Source: Candidatus Methanoperedentaceae archaeon HGW-Methanoperedenaceae-1
GTDB lineage: Archaea; Halobacteriota; Methanosarcinia; Methanosarcinales; Methanoperedenaceae
Direction of reading: 5' to 3'
Length of the DNA stretch: 32,502 bases
Assembly: GCA_002839545.1 (NCBI GenBank)
Contig: PGYG01000030.1
Coordinates: 1-32,502, forward strand
A program made the translations under genes and the position numbers. The notes below the pieces were generated by a model, which was not told the DNA's origin, did no database searches, and saw only the letters and a program-made list of their open reading frames with translations. Below are positions 4,566 through 26,634 of this stretch, in pieces. Position 1 is the stretch's first letter. Each line of letters starts with the position of its first letter.

Positions 4566-5093
4566 ATGAAATTTACAGAAACACGGCTAAAAGGAGCATT
4601 GATCATTGAACCTGAGCGTTTGGAAGATGAGCGTGGTTTCTTTGCACGTACTTTTTGCCAAAAGGAGTTTGAGGCTCATGGTATGAATCCCAGAATAGTC
4701 CAGTGTAACATTTCGTATAACAAACATAAAGGAACCTTACGAGGTATGCATTATCAGGTTGCACCCATGGCTGAAGCCAAATTAGTGAGCTGCACCAAAG
4801 GAGCTATCTATGATGTTATTATAGACCTGCGTCCCGAATCGCCCACTTACTGCCAGTGGTTGGCAGAGGAACTTAATGCTGAAAACCGCAAAATGATCTA
4901 TATTCCAGACGGTTTTGCACATGGATTCCAGTCTATTGAAGATGAAACAGAGGTCTTTTATCAGATGTCCGAATTCTACTCTCCTGAACATGCACGAGGG
5001 GTGCGATGGGACGATCCGGTGTTTGGAATTGAATGGCCTTTGAATTCGAAGATAATTTCTGAAAAAGATATGAACTACCCTTTAATAAGTTAA
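4566..5093 (+). CDS. rfbC: RmlC-family NDP-4-keto-6-deoxysugar 3,5-epimerase
   Basis: This 175-residue cupin matches dTDP-4-dehydrorhamnose 3,5-epimerase in length and landmarks: ERGFF near the start, the LRGMHYQ block with the catalytic histidine, a conserved lysine in AEAKLVSC, IPDGFAHGF, and the terminal WDDPVFGIEWP segment. It begins on the base after the methyltransferase stop, so it belongs to the CDP-sugar block. It may act on the CDP-linked, possibly C-methylated 4-keto sugar, as 5- or 3,5-epimerase. Alternatively it could complete dTDP-rhamnose synthesis with the rmlA and rmlB homologues 15 kb downstream. Family certain, natural substrate uncertain. Confidence 0.9.
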   Translation: MKFTETRLKGALIIEPERLEDERGFFARTFCQKEFEAHGMNPRIVQCNISYNKHKGTLRGMHYQVAPMAEAKLVSCTKGAIYDVIIDLRPESPTYCQWLAEELNAENRKMIYIPDGFAHGFQSIEDETEVFYQMSEFYSPEHARGVRWDDPVFGIEWPLNSKIISEKDMNYPLIS

Positions 5094-5123
5094 ATAAATC
5101 TAATGTGGTATGTGGGACATAGA

Positions 5124-5987
5124 ATGAAAATTTTAATTATTGGCAAGACAGGACAATTAGGAAGTGCATTGTTAAAAGATGCACTCGCATTAGGACACGA
5201 TGTTCTTGCCCCTTCCAGACAAGAACTTGATATTTTAAATGAAGAGTCGTTCTTGAAAGCAATGATGCACTATAAGCCAGAAGTTGTTATTAATACCGCT
5301 GCATTTCATAATGTACCATTGTGCGAAGTGGAGCCTATAAAAGCATTCCAATCAAATTGCATAGCAGTAAAAAAAATGGCTGAAATATCACATGAATTTG
5401 GTGCCTGGTTTGTTTCTTTTAGTACAGATTACGTGTTCAGTGGTGCGAAACAAATACCATATATTGAATCCGACACACCTGGTCCACTTCAAATGTATGG
5501 TTTATCAAAATTGGCTGGCGAATATGCTGCTCTTTCGTATAATAAATCAATTATTATCAGGACATGTGGATTGTATGGAATACAAGGTGCCACATCCAAA
5601 GGTGGCAATTTTGTAGATAATCGAATTAAAGATTCAAAACAGAATAATAGAATCGAGATTGGCAATGACCAAACAATAAGCCCGACTTATGCAGGAGATC
5701 TGAGTAAAGCTGTCTTGCAGCTGATTGCTCACCCATCCAAAGAATCGGGCATATATCATTTAGTTAACGAAGGATATTGCACATGGTATGAATTTACTAA
5801 GGAAATCTTTAAGATTTTAGACATTGGTGTTGAACTTGTGCCAGTGGATCGTGGTGGTAAAACGGATAAGATGAGAAGACCACGGTTTTCAGCTTTGAAA
5901 AACGAAAAGGGTGCTAAGATGGAAATAGATTTACCTAATTGGAAGGATGCTCTTAGTAGGTATTTAAATATGAAATATAATATGTGA
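5124..5987 (+). CDS. rfbD: RmlD-family NDP-4-dehydrosugar reductase
   Basis: This short-chain dehydrogenase of about 287 residues starts MKILIIGKTGQLG, the RmlD nucleotide-binding motif. It has STDYVFSG and the catalytic YGLSK, followed by AGEYAA and RTCGLYG. The family reduces the 4-keto group of the epimerised NDP-sugar with NAD(P)H, usually ending a 6-deoxyhexose pathway. The frame extends to an ATG at 5103, but the start at 5124 gives the canonical N-terminus. The segment AAFHNVPLCEVEP replaces the more common AAYTAVDKAE, a variant I associate with divergent members. Its place after the epimerase suggests it completes the CDP-sugar route, with dTDP-rhamnose as the alternative. Confidence 0.88.
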   Translation: MKILIIGKTGQLGSALLKDALALGHDVLAPSRQELDILNEESFLKAMMHYKPEVVINTAAFHNVPLCEVEPIKAFQSNCIAVKKMAEISHEFGAWFVSFSTDYVFSGAKQIPYIESDTPGPLQMYGLSKLAGEYAALSYNKSIIIRTCGLYGIQGATSKGGNFVDNRIKDSKQNNRIEIGNDQTISPTYAGDLSKAVLQLIAHPSKESGIYHLVNEGYCTWYEFTKEIFKILDIGVELVPVDRGGKTDKMRRPRFSALKNEKGAKMEIDLPNWKDALSRYLNMKYNM

Positions 5988-6035
5988 GTAATTTAGGGTT
6001 GCAAGATAAATGAAAACCGGTTTTTAGAGGGTAAA

Positions 6036-7043
6036 ATGAAAGCAAAAATCAAACCAAGAATAGACTTAGAAAACAGAACGAAGCTTGAGACCGTCATACC
6101 ACTTAGCGTCCCGTTTATAGTCTTTGTAGATCCTTCTGATTCATGTAATTTTAAATGCAAATTTTGTCCCTCTGGTGATAGGGAATTAATGAAGGAAGTC
6201 GGCAGAAGTCTTAGATACATGGATTTCGACCTTTACAAAAAAATAATAGATGACATTTGTGAATTTGAAAAACCCATCAAAGTTTTGAGACTTTACAAAG
6301 ATGGGGAGCCTTTGTTAAATCCGAGATTTGCAGAGATGATCCAGTATGCAAAAGGAAAAAATTGTTCCGAGAGAATCGACACTACAACAAATGCATCGCT
6401 ACTCAATCCCAAAAGAAACCTTGAAATTATTGAAGCGGGATTAGACAGAATTAATATCTCTATAGAAGGTATTAACGAAAAACAATATTTAGATTTTGCT
6501 AGTTATAAGATTGATTTTGAAAAACTCGTAGGAAATATTCGCCATTTTTATGAACACAAAAAAGACTGCGAAATGATCATAAAGATTAATGGTGATACGA
6601 TATCGGAAGATGACAAGACTAAATTTTACGAGATATTTGGAGATATAGCTGATGGTGTGTATATTGAGCACACTATGTCGTGCTGGCCTGAGTTTGAGCT
6701 AAAAGAAGTCGAAGTCAATAAAGAGGTTGGGATATATGGTCAAAAGATAAAAGAAGTTCAAGTCTGTCCTTATATATTCTATTCTTTTTCAATCAATTCG
6801 GATGGTTCGGCAAGTGCATGTTTTCTTGACTGGTCTAGAAAACTTATCATAGGTGATGCGAAAAGCGAAAGTATAAAAGATATATGGCATGGAGAAAAGC
6901 TCTTAAACTTACAGAAGATGTTTCTGAATAAAAAAAGAAAAGAACATCCAGTGTGTTGCAATTGCGGTCAGATGTCGCACGGGTTGCCCGATGACATTGA
7001 CGGCTATGCGGAGATGTTATTAGATCGTTTGGAGAAAAAATGA
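6036..7043 (+). CDS. Radical SAM/SPASM domain protein
   Basis: The 335-residue protein has the radical SAM cluster motif C37-x3-C41-x2-C44 in DSCNFKCKFC. A C-terminal SPASM-like region has C244, C262 and a closing group C307, C308 and C310, expected to bind an additional iron-sulfur cluster. SPASM enzymes modify peptides, proteins or sugars by radical chemistry; in surface-glycan loci their substrates are mostly unknown. A Shine-Dalgarno GAGGGT at 6027-6032 supports the ATG at 6036. It lies between the CDP-sugar genes and a GT4 transferase. Its stop overlaps the start of a 43-codon ORF whose product resembles this protein's own C-terminus. Function beyond the family cannot be read from sequence. 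Confidence 0.87.
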   Translation: MKAKIKPRIDLENRTKLETVIPLSVPFIVFVDPSDSCNFKCKFCPSGDRELMKEVGRSLRYMDFDLYKKIIDDICEFEKPIKVLRLYKDGEPLLNPRFAEMIQYAKGKNCSERIDTTTNASLLNPKRNLEIIEAGLDRINISIEGINEKQYLDFASYKIDFEKLVGNIRHFYEHKKDCEMIIKINGDTISEDDKTKFYEIFGDIADGVYIEHTMSCWPEFELKEVEVNKEVGIYGQKIKEVQVCPYIFYSFSINSDGSASACFLDWSRKLIIGDAKSESIKDIWHGEKLLNLQKMFLNKKRKEHPVCCNCGQMSHGLPDDIDGYAEMLLDRLEKK

Positions 7044-7171
7044 AACGAAGGAAAAACGCTGTGTGCGGACAATGCAGCCAGCTTTCACATTGTTCGTCAG
7101 ACAACATCGATCCATATGTCGATGAATTAGCTGAGCGGTTACTGGCATCGCGTCAAAGGAGAATTGGATAA
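7040..7171 (+). CDS. 43-residue ORF repeating the SPASM C-terminal tail
   Basis: This small frame starts at an ATG overlapping the stop of the radical SAM gene (ATGA), and its TAA overlaps the ATG of the next gene, so it sits exactly between two real genes. Its product, starting MKRRKNAVCGQCSQLSH, aligns with the last part of the preceding protein: the shared pattern is V-C-x2-C-x-Q-x-S-H-x3-D-x-I-D-x-Y-x5-L-x2-R-L, about 13 identities in 28 positions. The preceding protein has VCCNCGQMSH followed by the same helix. It may be a translated mini-protein or the remaining 3' end of a second radical SAM gene after deletion. The homology is visible; expression is not known. Confidence 0.6.
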   Translation: MKRRKNAVCGQCSQLSHCSSDNIDPYVDELAERLLASRQRRIG

Positions 7172-8457
7172 TGCAGGTATTGCATATTACTGCGCACCTT
7201 GGCGGTGGAGTAGGAAAGGTTCTGAGCGGACTTGTTGCGCAAGCGAGTATATCAAACTCAGGGATTAAGCATCTTATAGTTTGTCTTGAAGAGCCTGAAA
7301 AAAACCAATTCGTTGATAAAGTTCGCGAATATGGTGGTGAAGTCATTGTATGCCCGAGCATGGATATGCTCGAAAAGATAATAGAAGATTCAGACATCGT
7401 TCAGTTGGAGTGGTGGAACCATCCTGCAACGATCAAATATCTCTGTTCCTTGTCAATCCCGCCTATTCGACTCCTTACCTGGAGTCATGTGTCTGGCCTG
7501 CATACCCCTATTATTCCTAAAAAACTAATTTTGGCATCACATGTGTTTCTTTTCACATCCCAATGCTCGTTTGAAAGCAAAGAGGTAATGAGTCTGCCCC
7601 CCGAGTTTGAAGATCGGCTAGGTGTCGTATCCAGTAGTGGAGGATTTCCAGGATTGCCTGAGAGGAGGGACGGAATAAATGAGAGTGTTTCGGTTGGATA
7701 TTTCGGGAGCCTGAATTTTGCAAAACTTCATCCTCGTTATATTGACTATCTGGCAGCAGTAGAGATCCCTGGATTCAAAGTAAAGATCATTGGAGACTTG
7801 CACAATCAAGATACTCTGAATCAACAGTGTGATGCCATAGGTAAGACAGGAATACTTGAGTTCGCAGGATTTGTGCCAGATATAGCATCTGAACTTGCCA
7901 CAATCAATGTGCTTGCTTATCTTCTGAACCCAGAACATTATGGGACAACAGAAAACGCTCTCCTTGAGGCGATGGCGATGGGGGTAGTGCCTGTTGTATT
8001 AGATAATCCGGCAGAGCGCCAGATCATTGATGATCACAGTACAGGATTGATAGTCCACTCGCCAGACGAATTCGCTGATGCGATTCAATGGCTATCAGAA
8101 AATCCTGATGAGCGGCAAAGACTCGGAATCCAGGCCGCTAAGTCAGTTCGAGAGAGATTTTCCGCAGAAAAAATGGAAGCATCTCTTAATGAGTATTATC
8201 GAAAAACCATGTCAATGGAAAAAAGAACGATTGATTTCTCTGAGATTTTTGGTATCGATCCTGCTGAATGGTTCCTTTCATGTCAAGATGACAAAAGCAT
8301 TTTTATTGAAGATGGTAGTATTGAACTGGATGATGACACTATCGTTAGCTATGGACTGTTTGAAAAAAGCAAAGGATCGGTATTTCATTTCAGTGAGTAT
8401 TTTCCGGATAATTTGGAGTTGAAGTTATGGGCGAAAAATTTGAAATTGCTACAGTGA
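7171..8457 (+). CDS. GT4-family glycosyltransferase with C-terminal extension
   Basis: This 428-residue GT-B fold transferase begins with an N-terminal Rossmann-type start (HITAHLGGGVGKVLSGLV). It carries the family-4 donor-site segment HYGTTENALLEAMAMG with E261 and E266, followed by VVPVVLDNPAERQII. After the GT domain ends near residue 345 there is an extension of about 80 residues containing acidic segments, unlike compact GT4 enzymes and of unknown role. It starts on the TAA of the preceding mini-ORF, and its end overlaps the following FkbM gene by 31 bp, so the three are probably translated from one message. Donor and acceptor sugars cannot be predicted. Confidence 0.85.
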   Translation: MQVLHITAHLGGGVGKVLSGLVAQASISNSGIKHLIVCLEEPEKNQFVDKVREYGGEVIVCPSMDMLEKIIEDSDIVQLEWWNHPATIKYLCSLSIPPIRLLTWSHVSGLHTPIIPKKLILASHVFLFTSQCSFESKEVMSLPPEFEDRLGVVSSSGGFPGLPERRDGINESVSVGYFGSLNFAKLHPRYIDYLAAVEIPGFKVKIIGDLHNQDTLNQQCDAIGKTGILEFAGFVPDIASELATINVLAYLLNPEHYGTTENALLEAMAMGVVPVVLDNPAERQIIDDHSTGLIVHSPDEFADAIQWLSENPDERQRLGIQAAKSVRERFSAEKMEASLNEYYRKTMSMEKRTIDFSEIFGIDPAEWFLSCQDDKSIFIEDGSIELDDDTIVSYGLFEKSKGSVFHFSEYFPDNLELKLWAKNLKLLQ

Positions 8458-9647
8458 AATATACGAAAGCGCCTAATCGAAAGGTTGCACGCCAACTGTT
8501 GCACAAGATTGCTAAAAGACCGATTTCCTTCGTACCACGCAAGGTCGATAAGCCATTGATATTATATGGTGCAGGTAATCTTGGAAAAATGGCTAAGGAG
8601 TATTTTGAAAAACTTGGTATTCCCTTTTTGTTTGTGGTAGATGCAAATCCGGATTTGCACAGGCAAGACCCTTTCTGGGCAGGTGTTGATATTTTAGGAA
8701 TTCATGATGTCCCAATTAAGCAACGGGAATCTGCTCTATTGGCTATTTGCGTGGTAACGGCGCCTTATTCAAAAGTGACCGCTCCGTTAAAGGAGCAAGG
8801 TTGGCTTGATATAGTACCTTTTTATGATATTGCTGAGGCTTATCGTGACAAACACCCTTTAAGCAATGGCTGGCATTCTGGCTTATTAACTGGGGAAGAT
8901 ATCATTGGTATAGAATCTGTCTTATCCAGATGGGAGGATAATATTTCTCGTGCCCACCATTTACAATTCCTTGCTTGGCGCAGTTTGCGGAAAGAATGGT
9001 TTTTCGACGATGCACCAGTAACGACGCACGATCGTTTTTTCATACCACTGGTGCTTTCAATTTTGCATAATCATGAAGTATTTGTTGACATTGGTGCACA
9101 TCATGGAGAAGTCATCATCAGATTTTTAAATGCTGTAAAAAATGAGTACAAAGAGATATATGCTATCGAGCCTGACTCGGAGAACACTACCCAGTTTCAC
9201 AATTTTATGAAAGAATACATGTCGAAAGACAGTGAGAAAATCCATTTGTTGACGTGTGCACTTGGTTCGGATACAAATGGAAAAAGTTTTTACCATGGAT
9301 TGGACTATGTATCACAGTTTAGTGAATTGGGGCAAACAGGGATTGATGTTAAATGCCTTGATGAACTTTTGATTCCCACAACATTTATCAAAATTCATGT
9401 TGAAGGTTGGGAGTGTGGAGTCATTAGTGGTGGATTGGAAACACTTATCAATAACCGTCCTATACTCACAGTAACTTCATATCATAATCGAAATGGATTG
9501 TGGTGTCTTCCGGCTCAGATAATGACCTGTCTTGATAACTATGCTTATTATTTCCGATTACATAGTTGGCATGGGACAGGTGGTGTAATCTACGCAATTC
9601 CAAGAGAACGGATTTGCCAAAAAGATGAGTTAGATAAAATAATATAA
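8427..9647 (+). CDS. FkbM-family methyltransferase with N-terminal Rossmann-like domain
   Basis: The 406-residue protein has two parts. Residues about 44-135 form a nucleotide-binding-like domain (LILYGAGNLGKMAKEYF, glycine motif G48-A-G-N-L-G53). Residues about 215-390 form the FkbM SAM methyltransferase, with DIGAHHGE starting at D221, AIEPD, and KIHVEGWECGVISGG, the FkbM K-x-D/H-x-E-G block. FkbM enzymes usually O-methylate sugar hydroxyls in antibiotics or glycans. Its start lies within the preceding glycosyltransferase gene. The first acidic residue of the common KIDVEG motif is histidine here (IKIHVEGWE). Likely a cytoplasmic glycan methyltransferase; target unknown. Confidence 0.83.
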   Translation: MGEKFEIATVKYTKAPNRKVARQLLHKIAKRPISFVPRKVDKPLILYGAGNLGKMAKEYFEKLGIPFLFVVDANPDLHRQDPFWAGVDILGIHDVPIKQRESALLAICVVTAPYSKVTAPLKEQGWLDIVPFYDIAEAYRDKHPLSNGWHSGLLTGEDIIGIESVLSRWEDNISRAHHLQFLAWRSLRKEWFFDDAPVTTHDRFFIPLVLSILHNHEVFVDIGAHHGEVIIRFLNAVKNEYKEIYAIEPDSENTTQFHNFMKEYMSKDSEKIHLLTCALGSDTNGKSFYHGLDYVSQFSELGQTGIDVKCLDELLIPTTFIKIHVEGWECGVISGGLETLINNRPILTVTSYHNRNGLWCLPAQIMTCLDNYAYYFRLHSWHGTGGVIYAIPRERICQKDELDKII

Positions 9648-21475: not shown

Positions 21476-21730
21476 ATGAAATCGTTGAATTATACTGCCA
21501 GGGTATTGTCTGATGGGCACATATCACTGCCTGCCGAGATCAAAGAAGCGATGGGGCTCGCAGTCAATAGTGTGGTGAAGATCACATTAGAGCGAGATTT
21601 GCGAAAAGAAGATGCGATCAACGCATTTGGTGCCTGGTCTGAAAGAAGCGAGATTGAAGGCGGGGTTGAATATGTTGAGGACATAAGGAGTGGATGGGAT
21701 AAGAGGACGAAGAGGATCGATAATGCATAG
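21476..21730 (+). CDS. VapB-like antitoxin (AbrB/MazE swapped-hairpin fold)
   Basis: The 84-residue protein begins with a swapped-hairpin DNA-binding pattern (YTARVLSDGHISLPAEIKEAMGLAVNSVVKITLE), as in AbrB/SpoVT antitoxins. An acidic and charged tail (EGGVEYVEDIRSGWDKRTKR) follows, of the sort that wraps the toxin. It overlaps the downstream PIN toxin gene by 8 bp when that starts at 21723, the usual antitoxin-first order. The protein is expected to repress its own promoter alone or with the toxin. The composition is somewhat more GC-rich than the flanking rfbB gene. Confidence 0.82.
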   Translation: MKSLNYTARVLSDGHISLPAEIKEAMGLAVNSVVKITLERDLRKEDAINAFGAWSERSEIEGGVEYVEDIRSGWDKRTKRIDNA

Positions 21731-22124
21731 AACCAGGTTCCTTGTTGATACGGACATCATTATAAACTATCTGAAAGGGGGAAGAAAAGCCAAAGATTTC
21801 CTTATGGGGATTATTGACGATAGGATCGCAGGATTCTTTTCAGTCATAACTGAAGCTGAACTGTTATCCGGTGCAAGAAATGCTGATGATGAATCTGCTA
21901 TTTATTCAATACTTGATTGTATGGAAGGGATAGAAGTTGAAAGGAATATCGCTGTCACTGCAGGAAGGTTGAGACAGAAATATTATGCTGTTTACAGAAC
22001 TGAACTCCCCGATGCCATAATTGCGGCAACTGCAAGTGAATATGATCTTGTATTGGCTACTGCTAATGAAAAGCACTTTAATATGTTTGAAGGATTAGAA
22101 GCTGAATATATAAAAGAACTATGA
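21723..22124 (+). CDS. VapC-like PIN-domain toxin ribonuclease
   Basis: The product is a 133-residue PIN-domain protein, with D9 in LVDTDIIINYLKG, an acidic TEAELLSGAR block, and ELPDAIIAATASEYDLVLATANEKHF carrying the remaining acidic and asparagine residues. PIN toxins cleave RNA, often tRNA, when not bound by the antitoxin. The frame is open from an ATG at 21690, but GAGGATCG just upstream of 21723 makes that the better start. The catalytic set appears complete, so the toxin is probably functional. Neighbouring genes have nothing to do with its role. Confidence 0.85.
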   Translation: MHRTRFLVDTDIIINYLKGGRKAKDFLMGIIDDRIAGFFSVITEAELLSGARNADDESAIYSILDCMEGIEVERNIAVTAGRLRQKYYAVYRTELPDAIIAATASEYDLVLATANEKHFNMFEGLEAEYIKEL

Positions 22125-24020: not shown

Positions 24021-24090
24021 CGCAGTATCTCATTTCCATAATCTTTATTAGTTGTCACATCCACTTATAACCAATCAACTGAGGTGTACA

Positions 24091-26634
24091 TTGGCTAAAG
24101 TAAAATCCAGGAAGCAATCTACGGAAAAACCTGATAAAAAGAAAAACAATACTGAGAAAGAAAACGGGACGTTTTTTAACGTCAGTTACCTTTCGTATAT
24201 TATATTATTTGCAATATTCCTGTTTTCGTTTTATATAAGAGGTATTACCCCAATAGATAATGTTTTTCGCAATGGAATCGTTGGTTTTGCAATGGATGAT
24301 TCTGTTTTTCATATGAGGCTTGTGGAAAATACCATCCAATTTTTCCCGCACAGGATATTTTATGACGCGTTTACAATATACCCATCCGGAACCACACTCC
24401 ACTGGGGTCCCCTCTTTACCCAGATATTGGCGTTTTTTGCTTTGATTGCAGGGTTATTTACAACTGGCGGGATGCCCTCACAGTCAACTATTGATGCTCT
24501 TGGAGCTTTTTATCCCGCTGTTCTGGGTGCACTGGTTGTGTTTCCGGTTTATTTTATCGGAAAAGAGCTGGTTGATAATAAAGCAGGGCTTATCGGGGCG
24601 TTTTTAATAACAATACTTCCGGGACAGTGGCTGTCAAGGTCTGTGCTTGGATTTACTGATAATCACGTTGCAGAAGTATTCTATTTAACGCTAATGATGA
24701 TGTTTTTCATAATGGCTATTAAAAAAGCGGAAAACATTACTTTTAACCACTGGCTAAACAAAGACTGGAAAGCATTAAAAACACCCATAATTTATTCTCT
24801 TTTTGCAGGCATTTCTTTCGGGGCGTATCTCCTCAACTGGGTTCATGGTGTTTTCTTTGCAGCTGTGTTTGGTATTTTTGTTATCATCCAGTACATTATA
24901 GATCATTTCAGGGGGAATTCCACAGAATACCTGGGTGTAGTAGGTACAATATCCTATATCGTTGCCATGATAATGGTAATTCCTTATATTGAGCTTAGCA
25001 ATGGCTTTGGCTCATCAAGATACTCTCTCCTTCACTTAAGTGTAACAGGCGGCGGCGCAGTTGTGTTTGCTTTCCTGAGTCTTGTTTCCAGGGAAATGAA
25101 CCGGCGAAAATATAATGGGGCTCATTATTTATTATTTATATCAGGCGCGATATTGACTGGTCTGATAGCCCTAAAAATCCTATTGCCTGGATTGTACGGT
25201 GCAACCGTAGGACAAGTAGGTGATATATTTACAGCACATACCGGCGGTGCATTAACAATCGCAGAAGCATCACCCATAACCCCTGATATGATTATGGGCA
25301 ATTTCGGTTATAATTATTATCTGGCTTACCTTGCAATCGGGCTACTCTTCTATTATATTATCAAAAAATCAAATGCAGAATATACATTACTTGCAGTCTG
25401 GAGTCTATTCGTCCTTGCCATAATGCTGGCTCAGAACCGGTTTGCGTATTATTACGCAGTCAATGTAGCAATACTTGTAGGAATTCTGGGTTCCAAACTT
25501 CTTGATTTTGGCGACTGGAAACGTTTTGAATCAAATGATATTGTTGAATGTGTGAAAAAGCTCAGGATTCAGCATATACTTTCCCTGATTCTTATAATCA
25601 CGGTTATCGGATTTTTACCATCAAGTGCATCTCCATACAGAAACACAATGGAATCCGCGCCGTGGGGTGCAGTTTCCGGGGGATACTATGAATGGCATGA
25701 TGCCCTTACATGGATGAAAGACAATACACCGAAACCTGATTTACCATACTACTCAATATACGAAAAACCACCCAGTGGTGAATTATATCCTTATTCCAAG
25801 AACGATTACGGAGTAATGAGCTGGTGGGATTACGGGCATATCATCACATACTGGGCTCACAGGATTCCAAATGCAAACCCGTTCCAGGCAGGCATCGGCG
25901 GCGGGTCATCGCATGCACCAGGCGCTTCCACTTTCCTTATAGCACAGACTGAAGAAGGCGCAAACGAGGTTCTCGATAAACTTGGCATTAATGGAAAGCC
26001 AGGCGCAAGATATGTTGTGAGTAACGCTTACATGGCATATTCAATCCTTACCGTATTTGCGGAATGGGATGAAACGAATTACGGCTACTATACCCAGATC
26101 CAGACAAATAACGGACAGCAGGTTGTACCAAGCCAGAAATACTTTGGCACAATGGAAGCAAAACTCCACATATTTGATACAAACGGTCTTAAAAACTACA
26201 GGCTTGTGCATGAGTCCACGCCCAACCCGTATACGCGTGGCGGGAATGAGGAGCAGTGGTTTAAGAATGTTTACAATGTTTTGTACGGCGGCTCCCTCCA
26301 GGTTGAAAATTCAGGATATGCCAAGATTTTCGAGCACGTAAAAGGTGCAGCAATCACAGGACAAGCCCCGCCAGACACAACAGTTACAATCTCGAACATT
26401 ATCTTCACAAACATCGGACGAAGCATTCCGTACTCACAGACGACAACTGCGGTGAATGGCACCTACTCTTTCACAGTTCCGTATTCCACACTCGGACCAG
26501 TTTCAGGGGAAACCCAGTTTGATACAAAACCGACCGGAGCTTACACAGTGACTGCGGGCAACATCACCAGACAGGTCGATGTCAGTGAAAGGGATGTCCT
26601 TGATGGTCGAACTGTGGCACTTGACATGGTATAA
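24091..26634 (+). CDS. aglB: Archaeal oligosaccharyltransferase AglB (STT3)
   Basis: AglB moves the finished glycan from its dolichol-type carrier to Asn in N-x-S/T sequons on the outer face of the membrane. Counting from the TTG at 24091, the protein has 847 residues. After a lysine-rich N-terminus come about 12 membrane helices. Catalytic features are MDDSVFH (D69, D70), DNHVAE at 190-195, the TIAE loop at 389-392, and WWDYGH at 578-583 in the soluble domain. The C-terminus carries a beta-sandwich (about 750-847). The frame extends to a TTG at 24052, but GAGGTG at 24081-24086 supports 24091. Placement at the end of the glycan genes is the classic agl arrangement. Confidence 0.93.
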   Translation: MAKVKSRKQSTEKPDKKKNNTEKENGTFFNVSYLSYIILFAIFLFSFYIRGITPIDNVFRNGIVGFAMDDSVFHMRLVENTIQFFPHRIFYDAFTIYPSGTTLHWGPLFTQILAFFALIAGLFTTGGMPSQSTIDALGAFYPAVLGALVVFPVYFIGKELVDNKAGLIGAFLITILPGQWLSRSVLGFTDNHVAEVFYLTLMMMFFIMAIKKAENITFNHWLNKDWKALKTPIIYSLFAGISFGAYLLNWVHGVFFAAVFGIFVIIQYIIDHFRGNSTEYLGVVGTISYIVAMIMVIPYIELSNGFGSSRYSLLHLSVTGGGAVVFAFLSLVSREMNRRKYNGAHYLLFISGAILTGLIALKILLPGLYGATVGQVGDIFTAHTGGALTIAEASPITPDMIMGNFGYNYYLAYLAIGLLFYYIIKKSNAEYTLLAVWSLFVLAIMLAQNRFAYYYAVNVAILVGILGSKLLDFGDWKRFESNDIVECVKKLRIQHILSLILIITVIGFLPSSASPYRNTMESAPWGAVSGGYYEWHDALTWMKDNTPKPDLPYYSIYEKPPSGELYPYSKNDYGVMSWWDYGHIITYWAHRIPNANPFQAGIGGGSSHAPGASTFLIAQTEEGANEVLDKLGINGKPGARYVVSNAYMAYSILTVFAEWDETNYGYYTQIQTNNGQQVVPSQKYFGTMEAKLHIFDTNGLKNYRLVHESTPNPYTRGGNEEQWFKNVYNVLYGGSLQVENSGYAKIFEHVKGAAITGQAPPDTTVTISNIIFTNIGRSIPYSQTTTAVNGTYSFTVPYSTLGPVSGETQFDTKPTGAYTVTAGNITRQVDVSERDVLDGRTVALDMV

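Follow-up and report, generated by a model that had tools for sequence, protein, structure and literature searches.

The window, by which we mean the whole stretch of DNA analysed here (32,502 nt), is one entire contig (PGYG01000030.1) of the 128-contig assembly of Candidatus Methanoperedentaceae archaeon HGW-Methanoperedenaceae-1, whose genome bears MCR. Part of its glycan cluster reads rfbF - SDR - methyltransferase - rfbC - RmlD - rSAM_new - stub - GT - FkbM, where rSAM_new is a SPASM radical SAM (rSAM) gene, GT a glycosyltransferase gene and the stub a mini-ORF between them (Table 1). The mini-ORF is translated as MKRRKNAVCGQCSQLSHCSSDNIDPYVDELAERLLASRQRRIG* (43 codons plus stop). It shares its ATG with the stop codon of rSAM_new in an ATGA overlap (7040-7043) and its TAA with the ATG of the GT gene in a TAATG overlap (7169-7173), as an earlier sequence-only reading had described. 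Further downstream, the glycan cluster includes an AbrB-like antitoxin and PIN-domain toxin pair that is VapBC-like by eye (21476-22124), and a large membrane protein, AglB/STT3 oligosaccharyltransferase-like by eye, is encoded next to bacterial-type glycan genes (24052-26634).

Table 1. Features around the mini-ORF in the window.
Feature	Position	Strand	Description and basis
RmlD (dTDP-4-dehydrorhamnose reductase)	5103..5987	+	TIGR01214, 255 bits, above cut-off
rSAM_new, SPASM radical SAM gene	6036..7043	+	Complete, 335 aa; PF04055 (E 6e-18), PF13186 (E 3e-12)
Stub start region	7031..7043	+	GGAG (7031-7034), 5-nt spacer, then stub ATG over rSAM_new TGA; from the sequence
Mini-ORF (stub)	7040..7171	+	43 codons plus stop; probably what is left, at the 3' end, of a SPASM rSAM gene since displaced (rSAM_old); keeps CX2CX5C; from L025/L026 tail matches, dN/dS like that of GT, and tree
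AAAGGAG	7155..7161	+	Shine-Dalgarno-like site for the GT gene, within stub codons; from the sequence
Glycosyltransferase (GT), family 4 type	7171..8457	+	PF00534 (E 7e-19); probably inherited with the stub
FkbM methyltransferase	8427..9647	+	PF05050; 31-nt overlap with the GT end

When the whole 2.0-Mb genome is searched in six frames, the sole other match to the mini-ORF is the end of the preceding rSAM (44% identity over 34 residues, E = 7e-5). The likeness noticed in the sequence-only reading is better than chance, and better matches are found in bacterial rSAM tails, namely 76% in L025 (a Planctomycete MAG) and 74% in L026 (also a MAG) over 38 residues (E about 1e-16). In both, the matched rSAM gene lies upstream of the same GT as in the window. 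The stub aligns with L025 rSAM residues 301-338 and with the equivalent L026 segment, with the orthologous GT next in each case, and an ASRQ end is common only to the stub, L025 and L026. The stub thus shows the one-end homology to a longer gene, intact at the same place in L026, that marks a remnant. Its counterpart in SPASM radical SAM proteins (PF04055 plus PF13186) is the homologous C-terminal CX2CX5C segment, but the stub, unlike these proteins, lacks the radical SAM core with its CX3CX2C motif and the first half of the SPASM domain; with 43 residues and only CX2CX5C, it is not itself a SPASM protein. Searches of Pfam and NCBIfam gave no match above cut-off, including PF04055 and PF13186. 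The body of rSAM_old was not found elsewhere in the 92%-complete genome assembly. No phage carries a match to the mini-ORF tail, and the plasmid matches are only full rSAM genes of Brachyspira.

Loci of the rSAM family were found by scanning genome contigs with the preceding window rSAM. The family is bacterial, with members in Cyanobacteria, Brachyspira, Clostridia, Elusimicrobia, a Planctomycete and others. L026 has a single intact rSAM gene, which ends KRKAHAICGQCSQLSHCLPDNIDPYADELSVRLIASRQVLKK* and is overlapped by the GT start as ATGA, in the order rfbF - SDR - methyltransferase - rfbC - epimerase - rSAM_old - GT. Window and L026 are collinear, the sole exchange being [epimerase + rSAM_old] versus [RmlD + rSAM_new + stub]. 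Identities between the two are 56% for rfbF, 60% for SDR, 45% for the methyltransferase, 64% for rfbC, 56% for rSAM_new and 74% for the stub, and RmlD has no full-length match to the epimerase that occupies the same place in L025 and L026. Over its full length, the window GT is 75% identical to that of L025 and 59% to that of L026, where the GT directly follows the rSAM gene. In a six-frame search of the family rSAM loci, the tail motif otherwise always lies inside open frames of about 310-380 codons; the exceptions besides the window are L025, with two nonsense codons, and L040, with a split frame. The L025 rSAM (5001-6020) is conserved in sequence throughout and, with TAG at 5667-5669 and TGA at 5874-5876, is apparently a recent pseudogene. 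A repeat-like insert, about 180 bp long and possibly a MITE, separates it from the GT (L025:6030-6200; CATGCCCGAATGCTTCTATCGGGTATCC...).

Divergence from L025 assigns the stub to its downstream flank. Stub and L025 tail are 77% identical in amino acids and 74% in DNA (dN 0.141, dS 1.75), and the corresponding values for the GT are 75% and 76% (dN 0.149, dS 1.29), whereas the body of the window rSAM shares 58% of amino acids and 60% of DNA with L025 (dN 0.35). Branch-unique residue changes amount to 3/39 in the stub versus 20/427 in the GT. In the tail tree, which rests on a short alignment of 39 columns, the stub groups with L025 and L026 (support 94/94). In the body tree, the window rSAM falls with L018-L024, to which it is closest (65-67% identity for most, 61% for L023), and outside the L025/L026 branch, grouping with which is rejected (AU p 0.008). 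As stub and GT have diverged equally from L025 and the trees concur, the stub belongs with the GT and not with the preceding rSAM. If the window rSAM had itself undergone a local tandem duplication at its 3' end, this would explain why the two tails adjoin and share 44% of 34 residues. However, the stub is 74-76% identical to, and grouped with, other rSAM tails, the topology that makes it the sister of its own neighbour's tail is rejected (AU p 0.015), and the ASRQ end is confined to the L025/L026 type. We therefore give this explanation next to no credence.

The mini-ORF is very probably (probability about 0.92) a 3' remnant of an older SPASM rSAM gene of the L025/L026 type that once lay directly upstream of the GT, and hence a recombination scar, as judged from sequence comparison. 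Of the two possibilities raised by the sequence-only reading, the one favoured is thus that a second rSAM gene was deleted except for its last codons, on the grounds of the L025/L026 junctions, the trees, and the fact that stub and GT have diverged to the same extent. The ancestral state would have been as in L026, with rSAM_old directly before the GT. We infer that the body of rSAM_old and the preceding epimerase were lost, that RmlD and the divergent, homologous rSAM_new now stand in their place, and that the 3' breakpoint spared about 42 codons of rSAM_old. This could have happened in one exchange of [epimerase - most of rSAM_old] for [RmlD - rSAM_new] or through a tandem rSAM_new-rSAM_old pair, the second gene of which lost its body; both routes fit the data alike. 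The putative 3' replacement junction is placed at about 7035-7047, an A-rich stretch, from the sequence and the comparison with the L025/L026 tails, in which similarity starts at stub residue 2. An assembly chimera of two strain variants of the cluster might also juxtapose such segments, in favour of which one can cite that the assembly has 128 contigs and that the window is one entire contig. However, the junction offers only short A-rich similarity and no long repeat, and a chimera is very unlikely.

The stub shows none of the usual signs of decay, that is, stop codons, frameshifts or lost conserved residues: its frame is open and its Cys and Asp residues are kept. Decay is a usual but not strictly required mark of a remnant, and a recent event would look identical. 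Its absence fits a recent truncation or continuing constraint equally well. The synonymous-biased divergence that the sequence-only reading proposed to look for is present (dN/dS versus L025 about 0.08) and does not prove maintenance. Since this low ratio is inherited from the time inside the full gene, it is uninformative on present function.

The sequence-only reading had further taken the exact overlaps as a sign of maintained translation, an argument that loses its force here, as they can be accounted for by the origin of the junction. The overlap on the GT side is older than the mini-ORF because rSAM stop and GT start already overlap as ATGA in L026, and -4 overlaps are routine in the window cluster, with four other junctions (3330, 15837, 16559 and 20394) showing them. 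The 5' ATGA overlap arises where the stub ATG sits in the AAATGA stop region of rSAM_new itself, a gene ending also found in L026, L032 and L034. By chance, this ending would have given the stub an in-frame ATG behind GGAG. Ribosomes that finish rSAM_new could then start again on the stub, translate it and terminate at TAATG, which holds the start of the GT. Strict coupling of overlapping gene pairs was observed in Haloferax volcanii and E. coli, in 13 of the 14 cases tested (PMC6728339). The stub resembles such termination-reinitiation pairs in its ATGA and TAATG overlaps and Shine-Dalgarno-like sites, and differs from them in that a gene fragment takes the middle position and coupling is putative. 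The stub may well be translated, and a ribosome relay to the GT is plausible. That selection keeps the stub as a bridge by which ribosomes reinitiating after rSAM_new reach the GT, with no regard to the amino acids encoded, is a stronger proposition. The same overlaps, the AAAGGAG just upstream of the GT start and the coupling data speak for it, but this site is the GT's own, the overlaps follow from the junction origin, and there is no sign of selection. We consider it unlikely, a grading that refers to positive selection on the relay; a relay as such agrees with the stub origin.

The other possibility in the sequence-only reading was a small partner that is translated and provides a cluster ligand, in other words a maintained peptide whose CX2CX5C cysteines serve the rSAM_new enzyme in an auxiliary iron-sulfur cluster. 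The open frame with its start and Shine-Dalgarno-like GGAG, the conserved Cys residues and the low dN/dS are consistent with this, and rSAM_new has CX2CX5G where the stub has CX2CX5C. However, the closest relatives of rSAM_new (L018, L019, L020, L022 and L024) also miss the third SPASM Cys and have no small frame, suggesting that rSAM_new needs no helper for it. The L025 tail, too, follows a nonsense codon as a 45-codon ATG frame of its own, but the second, earlier nonsense codon indicates a dead rather than a split gene. Broken genes aside, the rSAM loci with the tail motif contain no separate small gene beside intact homologues, and plasmids and phages hold no standalone version. L026 is an orthologous locus without the small frame, its tail being part of the rSAM gene, which speaks against a maintained partner. 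A candidate small frame in the relative G032 (L017) lies antisense within long membrane-protein frames, Mtr operon-like, and was dismissed as a chance match. The dN/dS signal reflects inheritance from the full gene. A maintained partner is very improbable, and it is equally improbable that the last cluster-binding segment of the displaced enzyme became a separately translated 43-residue peptide lending CX2CX5C in trans to the replacing homologue. The present use of the stub, if any, is perhaps that of a ribosome relay to the GT and not a task of the peptide.

The cluster itself probably comes from outside the archaea. None of 200 related genomes has the GT, and none has an rSAM above about 36% identity; a genome of the same genus has neither. 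Because these genomes lack the GT and a close rSAM, an acquisition of the cluster from bacteria would fit. Genomes related to L025 and to L026, about 290 for each, yielded no further close GT loci and only a 32% match (G552), viral contigs contain no relative of the GT, and no same-species genome with an intact tandem or the pre-replacement state was found.

Recombination scars of this kind are known. O-antigen clusters contain gene remnants at recombination junctions, such as the wzy remnants of Salmonella groups B1 and D1 (PMC3715488). As in these, part of a gene remains, flanked by intact genes, where the cluster was rearranged and a function replaced. Unlike them, the window stub is an rSAM 3' end that lies next to the divergent homologue now in its place, its host is an MCR-bearing archaeon, and it has kept an open frame and overlaps at both ends. 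Its value as a mosaic record is mild: it would document a cassette exchange (epimerase + rSAM to RmlD + rSAM) in a glycan cluster from the bacterial gene pool, with a breakpoint resolved to within a dozen bases. It also calls for caution in small-ORF annotation, as a scar can mimic a small gene through an open frame, two overlaps and a low dN/dS that are all inherited or incidental.

Another stub is present in L025 after the GT, where the first 37 FkbM codons remain (L025:7458-7568; 65% over 37 aa) and are followed by a stop codon. This truncated FkbM 5' stub of about 37 codons (L025:7458-7620) is the mirror case of the window's 3' stub, suggesting that stubs at cassette borders are a repeated by-product here. 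In L020, L022, L024, L027, L035 and L038, which come from unrelated bacteria, the glycan clusters carry related SPASM rSAM genes in tandem, two or three to an array. Finally, 36-kb plasmids of Brachyspira hyodysenteriae carry rSAM relatives (NC_012226.1:15107-15205; NZ_CP019601.1).
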